DNA of 64,000 bases from Brachyspira intermedia PWS/A (lineage in GTDB: Bacteria; Spirochaetota; Brachyspiria; Brachyspirales; Brachyspiraceae), in contig NC_017243.1 in the NCBI RefSeq assembly GCF_000223215.1, forward strand, positions 2,356,001 to 2,420,000. Direction: 5' to 3'. A program made the position numbers and the translations under genes. Below, piece by piece: positions 4,031 through 10,533 of this stretch. Each line of letters opens with the position of its first letter. Position 1 is the first letter of the stretch. The notes under the pieces are model-generated. The model was not told the origin of the DNA. It ran no database searches and saw only the letters and a list, made by a program, of their open reading frames with translations.

Positions 4031-5435
4031 ATTTTGTAGCTAGTTTATCATTAGCATTAATACTCATTAATTTTTTAAATGAAATAGTAAATAATGTTAC
4101 TGTTGTACAAACAGCCAAAAAATCTGCTATAGGCTCTGCTAAAAGTACAGCCATTACTTTATTCTCCATAAATATAGGCAATATAAATATAAGCGGTATC
4201 AATAATATTACCTTTCTTAATATGGCTAGGAATGCAGATATTTTAGCGTTTCCTAAAGCTACAAATGTTTGCTGACATGCAGTTTGTGCCCCAAATATTA
4301 ATGAAGCTGCCATATATATTTTTAAAGCCCAAATAGCATAATTTATTAATTCTTCATCGCTTGTAAATATTCTAACAAAAACATAAGGAAAGAATTCTGA
4401 TATAAACCACATTAAAAAAGAAAAAGAAAGACAGCTTATTAAAAGTATCTTAAAAGCAGATTTTACTCTATTTAAATTATTTGCTCCATAATTATAACTT
4501 ATAATAGGCTGAGCTCCTTGTGTAAGTCCCATTATAGGAAGAAAAGAAAACTGCATAATACTGCTTAATATTGTCATAGCACCAACAGCCAAATCACCGC
4601 CGTATTTCAAAAGCGAAGTATTGAAAGATACAAATAAAATACTTTCTGTAAACTGCATTATAAAAGGTGAAAATCCTAAAGCTAAACATGGAAGTATTAC
4701 ATTAGGAGATATTTTTAAATTTTTTAATTTTAGTTTTAATACAGTTCTTTTAGATGTCATAAAAGAAAGTATCCATATACATGATATAGCCTGAGATATA
4801 ATAGTAGCAAGTGCTGCACCTCTAACATCCATATTAAATACAAATATAAATATAGGATCTAATATTATATTAGTAACAGCACCTATTAAAACAGTAAACA
4901 TACTTGTTTTTGCCTTTCCCTGAGCAGTGATAAAAGCATTGAGTCCTAAAGCTAATTGAACAAATATAGTACCTATAGAATATATTCTTAAATATCTCAA
5001 TGCATATATAATAGTATTTTCACTTGCACCGAAAACCATAAGAAGAGGCTTTGAAAATAATAATAATATTATAGTTAAAGTTACTGAAATAATGATTAAG
5101 GTCATAGCACAGTTTCCGACTATTTCTTCGGCTTTATCATAATCCTGCTTTCCCATCATTATAGAAGCACGAGGAGAACCTCCCATACTGATAAGATATG
5201 CAAATGCAGATACAGCCATTATAACAGGCATTGTAACACCTACCCCTGTTAAAGCCTTTGCACCAATATCAGGAATATGTCCTATATACATTCTGTCTAC
5301 AACATTATAAAGTACATTTATTATTTGCGCCGCTATTGCAGGAAGTGCTAGCTGAAAAAGCAATTTTCCTACAGGCTTATTTCCAAGCTCATTTGATTTT
5401 AAATTATTATTATCTAATACTGCTTCATTACTCAT
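4029..5435 (-). CDS. MATE family efflux transporter
   Basis: Multidrug and toxic-compound extrusion permease, 468 residues, about twelve hydrophobic helices. The N-terminal half has the typical MATE opening (PVGKLLFQLALPAIAAQIIN, then LYNVVDRMYIGH) followed by GGSPRASIMMGKQDYDKAEE in the first cytoplasmic loop, and the second half repeats the pattern (GLTQGAQPIISYNYGANN). MATE proteins exchange Na+ or H+ for organic cations and drugs at the inner membrane; the substrate here is unknown. It is divergent from the 5'-nucleotidase gene, sharing a 138-bp intergenic region. Confidence 0.93.
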   Translation of the reverse strand: MSNEAVLDNNNLKSNELGNKPVGKLLFQLALPAIAAQIINVLYNVVDRMYIGHIPDIGAKALTGVGVTMPVIMAVSAFAYLISMGGSPRASIMMGKQDYDKAEEIVGNCAMTLIIISVTLTIILLLFSKPLLMVFGASENTIIYALRYLRIYSIGTIFVQLALGLNAFITAQGKAKTSMFTVLIGAVTNIILDPIFIFVFNMDVRGAALATIISQAISCIWILSFMTSKRTVLKLKLKNLKISPNVILPCLALGFSPFIMQFTESILFVSFNTSLLKYGGDLAVGAMTILSSIMQFSFLPIMGLTQGAQPIISYNYGANNLNRVKSAFKILLISCLSFSFLMWFISEFFPYVFVRIFTSDEELINYAIWALKIYMAASLIFGAQTACQQTFVALGNAKISAFLAILRKVILLIPLIFILPIFMENKVMAVLLAEPIADFLAVCTTVTLFTISFKKLMSINANDKLATK

Positions 5436-7155: not shown

Positions 7156-7587
7156 TTACTTTTTTAAAGCAGCATTTAATTCAGTATATCCTGCATCTTT
7201 AAGATAATTCACATTTTTAAATCCGTTATCAAGCAAATACTGAACTGTTTTTCCTGAACGTCCGCCGCTCTTACAATAGAAGAAATATTTTTTAGTTTTA
7301 TCTAATGATAATATTTTTTTGCTGTAGCCTTTAGCTCTATAATCAATATTCATAGCACCTTTTATAGTTCCTGTTTCTTTAATCTCCTGAGGTGTTCTGA
7401 CATCAACTAATATTATATTAGGATCAGCTTTCCATGATGATATAAAGTCATTAAGAGCTAGGCCGTTTTTATTAACAACTTTTACATTGTCAAGTTCGTA
7501 TACAGCTTCATTAGTTTTTGCTGTTTGTGCATTACATACGATTGTTGTTAATAATAATGCGATAATAATAAAAAGATTTCTTTTCAT
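7156..7587 (-). CDS. exported rhodanese-like domain protein
   Basis: Single rhodanese domain of about 100 residues behind a signal peptide (MKRNLFIIIALLLTTIVCNA), 143 residues in all. The active-site loop CKSGGRS carries the catalytic cysteine (C105), and the LVDVRTPQE segment is the typical rhodanese CDC25-like motif. Such periplasmic rhodaneses bind sulfane sulfur; the acceptor is unknown. C18 lies at the end of the signal core but the spacing does not make a convincing lipobox. It is flanked by two near-identical terminator hairpins, so it is probably monocistronic. Confidence 0.9.
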   Translation of the reverse strand: MKRNLFIIIALLLTTIVCNAQTAKTNEAVYELDNVKVVNKNGLALNDFISSWKADPNIILVDVRTPQEIKETGTIKGAMNIDYRAKGYSKKILSLDKTKKYFFYCKSGGRSGKTVQYLLDNGFKNVNYLKDAGYTELNAALKK

Positions 7588-7758: not shown

Positions 7759-7792
7759 AAAAAAGGGGCTGTAATGAACAGTCCCTTTATTA
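7759..7792 (-). terminator. intrinsic terminator of the OLD-family gene
   Basis: Stem AAAGGGGCTGT / ACAGTCCCTTT with T-rich tail on the minus strand, just after the stop of the 7811-9826 gene. Its arms match the terminator at 7105-7140 almost base for base. Confidence 0.8.
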
Positions 7793-7810: not shown

Positions 7811-9826
7811 TTAATCTATTTCTCTAATAACCTTGAAAAAATTATCAATAGTAGTTTGAGATATCAGATTTTTTTCATAATAGTCTATTATATTATTTTT
7901 GAACAAAGCAGAATCCAGAGCATCTTTATTCTTTTTATCTATTTTATGAATTTGCTTATCATTATCATCGAATAAATCTTCTATTGTAACAAAATTAGAA
8001 CTTATATCTTCAAGCTGTGTTATTCTTAAATTTGTTCCTTCTGCTAACTCTGTAAATTGATCTGCTGAAATATCACTGTCAATTAATAATATCGGCTTAG
8101 CAGAAAGTTTACATAATGAATCTATTATATCATTTTTCTTTCTTTCATCATTAGGCCTTCCCACTCCATTAATAGGCATAAATGCTGTATTTATTTCTCT
8201 ATTTTCTATATGCTCCATTAATAATTTAAAAGCTGTAAGATAATTATAATCTGTAATACCTTCAACATATACTATTTTAGTATCTCTCATAATATCTATA
8301 TGCTTAACACCAAATGCATTTATAATTTTTTCTAATGTATCTACTTTACCATAAGTAGCAGAGAAATCATTTTCTATTTTTACTCCTATACCGTCTTGTT
8401 TTGGTTCTACTATTTTTAATTCATCTAAATAATGAATATCTGCAAAATAAGGAATTTGAGTAGATGTGATTATAGTAACGCCATTATCTTTAGCAAACTC
8501 TTTCAAAAATTTTCTTAATTCTTTTATTAAAGGAACTGATAAATGCTGTTCAGGCTCATCAATTATAATTATATCACCTTTTTTTAATTCATTAGGATTG
8601 ATTGTATTAAAGAATAAACTGAAAAACCAATTAAATCCTTCAGATTCATTTTCTAGATTAGTAATACCATTTCTAGTTTCAAAATATATTTTTATAAAGT
8701 ATTCATCTAATGCTATTTTAAATTTATATTCATTATTTGATTTATATAGTTCATTGAATTTCTTTGATACGGTGTTGTCAAAAAGTTTATTTATTTCATT
8801 TTCTGTCTGTTTTGCAAAAGCAACATCAGATAATATATTAGTATAGTTTTTTATTAAATTATTATACATCTCCATATTATCTGCCGCTTTGAATAATGAA
8901 CGTAAAAAATGAGATTTGGTTATAATATTTTCAGTTTTATCATGATAATGTCCATTACTGCTATAGCATCCCACAGTAAGCTCGCTGTTTTTTACATTTT
9001 CTCTATGAACATATATATTTATATTTACAGACTCAATTTCTGCTAAAATTTCTAATAAGTATTTTAAATCATTTTTATTAATCTGATTTTCATCGAAATT
9101 AAACTCACGGTATCCGGTATTTTTATTTTGTTCATAAGATTCATCATCAAGCAAACTTATTAATAATTTTAATTTATCTATATTTTCATTTTCTTTATAT
9201 TTAGAAATTATATCCATTATTTTTGATACAGTATAATTTAATATATCTTCATAAGCATATTCTGTTTTTGATTTATTATCATATTTATAATTATATTCAT
9301 AAACAAAGTATATACTGCTGCCGTATTTTGAAGTAACATTATTTGTGGAATTGTATATATAATCCATTATTTTTGACAAATAATTTTTACTTAAAATAAT
9401 ATCTGAATTGATTTTATTTTCTTCTAATTCCCATACAAGTTTATCTTTATATTCATCTTTTTCGCTGTATCCAGTTTTTTTTATTCTAATAGTTCTACAT
9501 TTACCTTTATATACAAGTCCGCTATCTGCTTCAATAAATATTTCTAACTCTGGTTTGCATCCTATAAAACCATCTATTTTAGGATTATCTTTTCTGCCGT
9601 TTATACCGCCTTTAAATGATTTTTCTATTGCTGATAGTATATTACTTTTACCGGTGCCGTTTGCCCCTATAATGCTTATTAATGCCCCTTGCTCTATATC
9701 ACCATTAAGATATAATCTGCCGTATTTTACTTCATCTTCTTTCTTTTCTGAATTATATTCTGCCTCCTTACTTACAATTACAGGATTAATATTTCTGAAG
9801 TTTTTAATTGTTAAATATCTTTTCAT
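7811..9826 (-). CDS. OLD-family ATP-dependent nuclease (AAA ATPase + TOPRIM)
   Basis: 671-residue ATPase fused to a TOPRIM domain. Walker A is GANGTGKS (residues 54-61), an ABC-signature-like ESEGFNW lies at 394-400 and Walker B is IIIIDEP (419-425). The C-terminal TOPRIM has the metal-binding glutamate in VEG (E522) and the DSD motif (D583, D585). This order is that of overcoming-lysogeny-defect (OLD) enzymes and of the GajA and PARIS-like anti-phage proteins, which act as ATP-regulated nucleases. No helicase partner (GajB) is present. It sits 17 bases behind the HTH gene 9844-10350, so both are likely co-transcribed. Anti-phage function is inference. Confidence 0.85.
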   Translation of the reverse strand: MKRYLTIKNFRNINPVIVSKEAEYNSEKKEDEVKYGRLYLNGDIEQGALISIIGANGTGKSNILSAIEKSFKGGINGRKDNPKIDGFIGCKPELEIFIEADSGLVYKGKCRTIRIKKTGYSEKDEYKDKLVWELEENKINSDIILSKNYLSKIMDYIYNSTNNVTSKYGSSIYFVYEYNYKYDNKSKTEYAYEDILNYTVSKIMDIISKYKENENIDKLKLLISLLDDESYEQNKNTGYREFNFDENQINKNDLKYLLEILAEIESVNINIYVHRENVKNSELTVGCYSSNGHYHDKTENIITKSHFLRSLFKAADNMEMYNNLIKNYTNILSDVAFAKQTENEINKLFDNTVSKKFNELYKSNNEYKFKIALDEYFIKIYFETRNGITNLENESEGFNWFFSLFFNTINPNELKKGDIIIIDEPEQHLSVPLIKELRKFLKEFAKDNGVTIITSTQIPYFADIHYLDELKIVEPKQDGIGVKIENDFSATYGKVDTLEKIINAFGVKHIDIMRDTKIVYVEGITDYNYLTAFKLLMEHIENREINTAFMPINGVGRPNDERKKNDIIDSLCKLSAKPILLIDSDISADQFTELAEGTNLRITQLEDISSNFVTIEDLFDDNDKQIHKIDKKNKDALDSALFKNNIIDYYEKNLISQTTIDNFFKVIREID

Positions 9827-9843
9827 AAGTTTTTCCCTAAATT

Positions 9844-10350
9844 TTATTGCTTATCTTTATTTGATAATCTCATTCTGAAACCTTGAGATTTATATAAACT
9901 CATAAGAGGTGATATAAACTCATAATCCTCTTCAGATAATTTTTTGTCCGGATCAGTAGAAAGTTTTTTACATTTCATCAAATAATCTAATATAGGATCA
10001 AAAAAATTATCCTCTGTAAGCATATATATAAAATCCTCTTTTGTTTTATTTTCTGTTTTTAATAATGATTTTATTTTCATCCTTTTAACCTCCTCAGTAT
10101 TATTTGTATTGCTATTCTCAACGATATTATTCATTATATAATAAATAACATTATTACTTCCTATGTTTTTACTGTTTTGTATATAATCAAAGAGATTTAA
10201 TATTTTTGTATCTATTGTACTTCTATTACCTTCTTCGTACATATCTATATATTTATATAAAGTAGGTCTTGATATTTTAAGATATTCTGCAAGATCAGAT
10301 ATTCTCAAACCTAAATCTCTTATTTTTTCTCTTAATAATTTATTTTCCAT
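9844..10350 (-). CDS. helix-turn-helix regulator paired with the OLD-family nuclease
   Basis: 168 residues. The N-terminus (about residues 5-37) is a helix-turn-helix: LGLRISDLAEYLKISRPTLY, which resembles Xre/MerR-like recognition folds. The remaining two thirds are polar and unrecognised, perhaps oligomerisation or sensing. It is the first gene of a two-gene unit with the OLD-type nuclease. Three palindromes of the form TTTACA-N5-TGTAAA lie upstream, one covering the -35 box, so I infer autorepression. Ribosome site is weak (AGAG). An alternative is that it is an integral partner of the nuclease rather than only a repressor. Confidence 0.7.
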   Translation of the reverse strand: MENKLLREKIRDLGLRISDLAEYLKISRPTLYKYIDMYEEGNRSTIDTKILNLFDYIQNSKNIGSNNVIYYIMNNIVENSNTNNTEEVKRMKIKSLLKTENKTKEDFIYMLTEDNFFDPILDYLMKCKKLSTDPDKKLSEEDYEFISPLMSLYKSQGFRMRLSNKDKQ

Positions 10351-10457
10351 TTTTATTTTTCTCTTTTATTAAATTAAAAATTAATATTCCATAGACATAA
10401 TACAATTTTTCTAATAACTAAAATATAGTGTTCTTATAAAATCCCTAATACATCTAG

Positions 10458-10485
10458 AATATAAACTATTTACACAAAATGTCAA
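10458..10485 (-). promoter_or_regulatory. sigma-70 promoter of the HTH/OLD unit
   Basis: On the minus strand TTGACA (10485-10480), 16-bp spacer, TATATT (10463-10458). Start of transcription would be near 10451, leaving a leader of about 100 bases before the HTH start. The -35 box is the outer arm of operator 1. Confidence 0.65.
10469..10485. promoter_or_regulatory. operator 1 (TTTACA-N5-TGTCAA)
   Basis: 17-bp palindrome with one mismatched pair, overlapping the -35 box and spacer of the HTH/OLD promoter. Occupancy would block RNA polymerase. First of three sites at 24-bp pitch. Confidence 0.7.
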
Positions 10486-10492
10486 TATTTAA

Positions 10493-10509
10493 TTTACAAA
10501 TAATGTAAA
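10493..10509. promoter_or_regulatory. operator 2 (TTTACA-N5-TGTAAA)
   Basis: Perfect 6-bp inverted repeat around a 5-bp centre (AATAA), 24 bp from operator 1 and just upstream of the -35 box. Confidence 0.7.
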
Positions 10510-10516
10510 ATAATAA

Positions 10517-10533
10517 TTTACAAAAAGTGTAAA
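10517..10533. promoter_or_regulatory. operator 3 (TTTACA-N5-TGTAAA)
   Basis: Perfect 6-bp inverted repeat around AAAAG, again exactly 24 bp from its neighbour. The regular pitch suggests cooperative binding by one protein. Confidence 0.7.

Follow-up and report, generated by a model that had tools for sequence, protein, structure and literature searches.

The operon and its surroundings

Two genes follow one another on the minus strand of the window (the whole 64,000-nucleotide stretch of Brachyspira intermedia PWS/A DNA that was analysed). The first of this operon encodes a 168-residue HTH protein, a predicted autorepressor (9844..10350, minus strand), and the second, which starts after a spacer of 17 bp, a 671-residue OLD-like ATPase/TOPRIM protein (7811..9826, minus strand). 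The pair proposed in the initial annotation is thus real, as is the claim that it has no helicase or second effector, none of these (nor a reverse transcriptase) being found next to the pair in the window. Rfam detects no RNA family at the locus. A terminator-like hairpin (7762..7788; one found, 0.3 expected) lies 3′ of the nuclease gene, before a rhodanese gene; it was called on the plus strand, and by sequence reading its stem is followed by a T-run on the minus strand as well.

The pair is flanked by a 2-hydroxyglutaryl-CoA-dehydratase-activase-like gene and the gene of a secreted rhodanese, and by 5′-nucleotidase-like and MATE-like genes (both by sequence reading). These neighbours are of housekeeping type and do not form a defence island, which counts against a role in defence. 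An empty-site comparison showed that the DNA downstream of the activase gene has been rearranged throughout the rest of the genus. The small rhodanese gene (7156-7587 in the window, where its product is secreted) adjoins the OLD copy here and is also found beside OLD at different Brachyspira loci (L054, L055, L059, L062, L063, L066 and L067), and may mark a site of recombination.

Three predicted operators at a promoter

Upstream of the HTH gene lie three 17-bp palindromes with the consensus TTTACA-N5-TGTAAA, at a pitch of 24 and 24 bp, in keeping with the three operators first noticed there. O1 (TTTACACTTTTTGTAAA, minus strand, 10517..10533) and O2 (TTTACATTATTTGTAAA, minus strand, 10493..10509) are exact, while O3 (TTGACATTTTGTGTAAA, minus strand, 10469..10485) has one mismatch and contains the −35 hexamer of a predicted promoter, TTGACA-N16-TATATT (10458..10485, minus strand), which matches the consensus at 11 of 12 positions and has the joint top score in the region. 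Promoter-like sites are not more numerous than in shuffled sequences, and it is therefore their position and conservation that carry weight. The arrangement is the same at other Brachyspira HTH loci, where O3 (or O2 when O3 is missing) lies over the −35 box and the 24-bp pitch is retained in nearly all cases.

The exact palindrome is present in all 12 intact HTH promoters of Brachyspira (shuffles predict 0.01 of 12), and a palindrome is found upstream of the six intact pairs outside the genus (one in a spirochaete of another family, five in archaea). Counted together, 17 of 18 HTH-OLD loci, in two domains of life, have the exact site, and the 18th has the variant TATACA-N5-TGTATA. Nuclease copies that lack the HTH gene have no intact palindrome; two of them, at the window's own site (in genomes G004 and G005), keep what appear to be decayed operator remnants, e.g. 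TTTACACTTTTTGAGAG. Since an operator covers the −35 box and the operators are lost together with the HTH gene, the HTH protein very probably silences the promoter that serves both its own gene and the OLD gene. It would be a local regulator, because exact TTTACA-N5-TGTAAA sites number only three in the whole 3.3-Mb genome, and two of them are at this locus; a regulon extending beyond the operon was rejected, the third site being within a coding sequence.

Three of the HTH-less copies (L050:6992-7343, L051:6492-6858 and L052:9113-9492) share a conserved AT-rich stretch, TATAAAAATAATGTTTTATATATTGTATAAAATATTATTTAAG, which may be a replacement promoter or regulatory site.

An OLD-type protein

The motifs of OLD proteins listed in the initial annotation (Walker A and B, the TOPRIM glutamate and DSD) are all there. 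Walker A is GANGTGKS (residues 54-61; 9644..9667, minus strand), with G54, N56, G59 and K60 invariant, and Walker B is IIIIDEP; the TOPRIM glutamate E522 (8261-8263, minus strand) and the aspartates of D583-S-D585 (8072..8080, minus strand) are invariant in alignments. K60, D423-E424, E522, D583 and D585 do not vary in 17 aligned Brachyspira copies, HTH-less ones included, nor in alignments with the archaeal protein from L079. The ATPase is N-terminal and of the ABC/AAA_21 type with both Walker motifs, as in the OLD family, and the Pfam AAA_21 match scores 44.5 bits for a cut-off of 27.

The likeness to the ATPase-TOPRIM logic of GajA and PARIS, also suggested earlier, is upheld by PADLOC profiles, which match the protein as AbiLi, AriA (E 1.9e-12), Old (E 2.9e-6, residues 413-614) and GajA (E 7.6e-6), but not by the Pfam model of the OLD TOPRIM domain (PF20469), which misses the window protein and matches its homologue from L104 below the cut-off. 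The TOPRIM assignment is thus based on the motifs and on profiles that match in part, because the Pfam TOPRIM model alone is sub-threshold. The nearest PDB match by profile is T. scotoductus OLD (6p74; E 1.9e-10, ATPase part), which also ranks first by fold in a comparison that used a poor model (pLDDT 58.9) whose N-terminal half has low confidence.

A predicted regulator made of two halves

The HTH protein consists of an N-terminal HTH half (residues 1-76; 10123..10350, minus strand), with the recognition helix SRPTLYKY, and a C-terminal helical half (residues 79-168; 9847..10116, minus strand). In the AlphaFold model, confidence is high for roughly residues 1-70 and low in the C-terminal half, and a structure search with this model gave no significant fold match. 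In Pfam, no WYL domain is detected in the protein, and the C-terminal half has no relative in Pfam or the PDB.

The two halves differ in their occurrence. SRPTLYKY is also found in weaker archaeal matches to the HTH, several of which carry the exact palindrome too, and these adjoin SbcD/SbcC genes or stand elsewhere. The C-terminal half is restricted to OLD-paired members: when a profile built on it was run against test proteins, each of the five paired with OLD gave a match (E 8e-7 to 1e-12), as against none of 12 other HTH proteins. The HTH regulators beside archaeal SbcCD resemble the window protein in their N-terminal half and recognition helix, and several of them in their operator, but differ from it in the C-terminal half, and their effector is of the Mre11/Rad50 type. 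A DNA-reading half and its operator are thus common to different effectors, and the C-terminal half goes with the effector, which is the main new observation of this analysis.

The archaeal loci in which SbcD/SbcC (Mre11/Rad50-like) genes sit beside an HTH with the window's recognition helix are L133:5146-9949, L134:424-5290, L136:254-5083, L135, L139 and L141, and some of this group share the window's palindrome, or have one like it, upstream.

Distribution in and beyond Brachyspira

The HTH gene occurs in 13 of 26 Brachyspira genomes (one a pseudogene) and the nuclease gene in 22 of 26 (one a remnant), and wherever the HTH is intact, a nuclease copy follows it directly. The pairs fall into two clades, between which the identity is about 57% for HTH proteins and about 38% for nucleases. 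In the second clade the two genes have a 4-bp start/stop overlap. Nuclease copies without an HTH are found at other sites, and at the window's own site in G004, G005 and G006. In the tree they are nested among HTH-bearing copies, with five changes of HTH presence. There are broken copies in G004, G009, G015 and G020, and in G009 it is the HTH that is a pseudogene, the nuclease being open. The initial annotation had named fixation at a single locus throughout Brachyspira, with strong purifying selection and no phage phenotype, as a sign against its reading. The pair is instead patchy and found at several sites, although in one clade the nuclease has a fixed site and evolves slowly, whereas strong purifying selection does act on both genes (omega is 0.03-0.13 for the HTH among close relatives and 0.09-0.22 between HTH-less nuclease copies). 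A variant layout is seen at L049:2107-6563, where a single HTH gene precedes two OLD genes in tandem; these have diverged, one being 50% and the other 85% identical to that of the window.

A scan for the HTH in 84,980 species (one genome per species) gave a single match outside Brachyspira, in the archaeon Candidatus Methanoplasma. That HTH is 37% identical, its gene end is overlapped by an OLD gene whose product shares 32% identity with the L066 protein (663 alignment columns), and the locus (L079) has two TATACA-N5-TGTATA sites 22 bp apart (L079:4932-4948 and 4954-4970). Searches of whole genomes revealed two pairs in a second spirochaete family, of which one is intact and the other decayed, and four more in methanogenic archaea of the Methanoplasma class, which places the known pairs in spirochaetes and Thermoplasmatota; the five intact pairs thus added all carry the exact palindrome. 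An OLD gene lies directly downstream in L104, L126, L127, L128, L129 and L079, as found by an HTH profile search, the nuclease frame of L129 being interrupted, and overlaps between the two genes also occur in archaea. The pair is thus conserved as a pair well beyond the genus, and the earlier worry that the HTH gene might be unrelated in other genomes is dispelled. The HTH remains rare, being found in 15 of 393 spirochaete genomes.

The archaeal pairs had been detected by way of the HTH, and a reverse search from the nuclease was run to test for the bias that this could bring: five of ten archaeal OLD relatives have an HTH of the window type, and others have either a HFX_2341/DUF6293 regulator or a coiled-coil gene. 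At L222:4022-6918, in an archaeon, the HFX_2341/DUF6293 regulator (CARF-like plus winged helix) is directly upstream of the OLD relative; by its sequence, it is a second kind of predicted DNA-binding partner in this OLD group.

The idea that the pair came from a phage or plasmid was rejected, since the HTH has no match in phage, plasmid and IMG/VR collections and the phage relatives of the nuclease are all distant or broken. One such relative, in a Helicobacter pylori phage (L179, PQ159898.1, 4841-5870), is a fragmented OLD gene without an HTH, which shares about 38% identity with the L104 protein.

Relation to known OLD and defence systems

The five described OLD classes are defined largely by gene context, and the window pair fits none of them. 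Class 1, defined as a standalone gene (P2 Old, 6p74, E. coli YbjD/OldB), shares with it the fusion of ABC ATPase and TOPRIM in one protein, but in the window an HTH gene of its own and operators form part of the unit, and the sequences have little identity; the HTH is directly upstream in all HTH loci, and only the HTH-less copies would qualify as class 1. Gabija (class 2) was rejected for want of an adjacent UvrD/PcrA/Rep-like helicase, retrons (class 3) for want of an adjacent reverse transcriptase or ncRNA, and PARIS (class 4) because ATPase and TOPRIM are here in one 671-residue protein and not in separate genes. AriA/AriB and GajA/GajB are alike in their ABC-ATPase plus TOPRIM logic; the window pair differs in having neither a split TOPRIM gene nor a UvrD-like helicase, its partner being an HTH protein. 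Class 5 (Cran1), an operon with a predicted membrane-protein gene that is vertically inherited and confined to Sulfolobales (PMC12796447), was set aside as well, in view of the HTH partner and a distribution that covers spirochaetes and Thermoplasmatota.

Closer parallels are found among repressors of defence systems. RptR (about 9 kDa) represses Type I RM/DarTG2 islands through TAGCTA sites of 6 bp that are set in 9-bp repeats and lie at the −10 box, and is conserved with its sites across bacteria (PMC12255303). Its gene comes first in a defence operon, and it binds three palindromes in tandem that overlap the promoter of that gene (PMC12255303). The gene order and the number of sites are alike in the window, but the window protein has 168 residues, 17-bp sites at a 24-bp pitch over the −35 box and an OLD effector, and is also found in archaea. 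BrxR and CapW are HTH repressors of defence systems that bind inverted repeats (PMC9122601, PMC9122588), and BrxR has a WYL ligand domain that the window HTH lacks by Pfam. The site architecture of RptR and BrxR, with palindromes at the promoter, is thus present here, whereas the regulator differs in size and domains. By analogy, the control logic would be that of RptR, BrxR and CapW for defence, exerted by a different regulator protein through a different operator.

No OLD gene with a repressor or HTH partner came up in the literature searched, whose scope leaves out many subscription papers. The window group may coincide with one of the uncharacterised OLD clades U1-U10 of the Cran1 study (PMC12796447). 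The suggestion of an undescribed architecture is supported by the dedicated HTH partner, and the sequences point to a previously undescribed HTH-OLD module, probably anti-phage.

A model, and its alternatives

The model that we infer – with DNA binding, repression, an inducer, nuclease activity and a role in defence – is built on what the sequences show, i.e. gene order, operator conservation, the co-occurrence of operators with the HTH, catalytic motifs and the link between C-terminal half and effector. We consider it reasonably probable that the pair is an autoregulated operon in which the C-terminal half of the HTH protein senses a signal or contacts OLD, and which provides an induced effector against phages or mobile elements. 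The HTH protein, probably as dimers, would bind the three tandem TTTACA-N5-TGTAAA palindromes, of which O3 lies over the −35 box, and would repress both the HTH gene and the OLD-like gene downstream. The C-terminal helical half would either sense an inducing signal or contact the OLD protein, phage infection or DNA damage would relieve repression, and the OLD protein, as its level rises, would act on nucleic acid, most likely that of phages or mobile elements.

Among the possible roles defence is the likeliest, given the kinship with OLD, the patchy occurrence, gene decay and the defence genes beside two of the loci, which together make it likely on sequence grounds. At L127 (1418-5645), a HEC-01A-type ATPase gene (PADLOC E 1e-128) is directly downstream of the pair, and at L105 (5008-7794) a decayed pair has as neighbours a type II methyltransferase and PDC-S34, a candidate defence gene. 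Kinship by itself is no proof, since Cran1, an archaeal OLD, is a cell-cycle protein (PMC12796447). At L104 (1884-3188), the pair is followed by a gene for a 434-residue protein with no Pfam or PADLOC match, possibly a third component.

A broader reading, which we regard as possible rather than probable, is that of a cross-domain cassette, in which one HTH half and a near-invariant operator are joined to C-terminal halves matched to OLD (in spirochaetes and archaea) or to SbcCD (in archaea). Each C-terminal half would sense or restrain its own nuclease, making the protein repressor, sensor and inhibitor at once.

It is unlikely that the pair is a toxin-antitoxin system, in which the HTH antitoxin would repress the operon and block an OLD toxin through its C-terminal half, so that HTH loss would free the toxin. 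The order of the genes (small gene first), their overlaps in the second Brachyspira clade and in archaea, the autoregulatory palindromes and the OLD-specific C-terminal half would all suit such a system. However, at several Brachyspira loci nuclease genes are open and under purifying selection without any HTH, G009 has an open nuclease beside its HTH pseudogene, and loss of an obligate antitoxin would be expected to be rarer than the five changes of HTH presence on the tree. Repeated loss of the HTH with a retained, selected nuclease argues against an obligate antitoxin; open nuclease genes without HTH or operators suggest that the HTH is dispensable for harmlessness in some backgrounds.

Equally improbable, in our estimate, is a housekeeping DNA-repair or cell-cycle module in which this HTH family controls OLD or SbcCD upon DNA damage, with no dedicated anti-phage role. 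The presence of the N-terminal HTH and operator beside archaeal SbcCD, the Cran1 precedent (PMC12796447) and the housekeeping neighbours in the window speak for it, but core repair genes would not be expected to be so patchy, to occupy multiple sites and have broken copies, or to combine cross-domain spread with such rarity within phyla (those 15 of 393 spirochaete genomes). As for an accidental pairing of unrelated neighbours, it is scarcely credible and was rejected: HTH-less nucleases are common in Brachyspira and make up five of the ten archaeal matches, but each full-length HTH found, in spirochaetes as in archaea, sits directly upstream of an OLD gene.

This family offers a ready test of how OLD nucleases are silenced and switched on, thanks to (i) an operator kept from spirochaetes to archaea, (ii) a C-terminal half that tracks the effector and (iii) nucleases that are naturally devoid of the regulator. 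The TTTACA-N5-TGTAAA operator motif could moreover be used for finding related modules.
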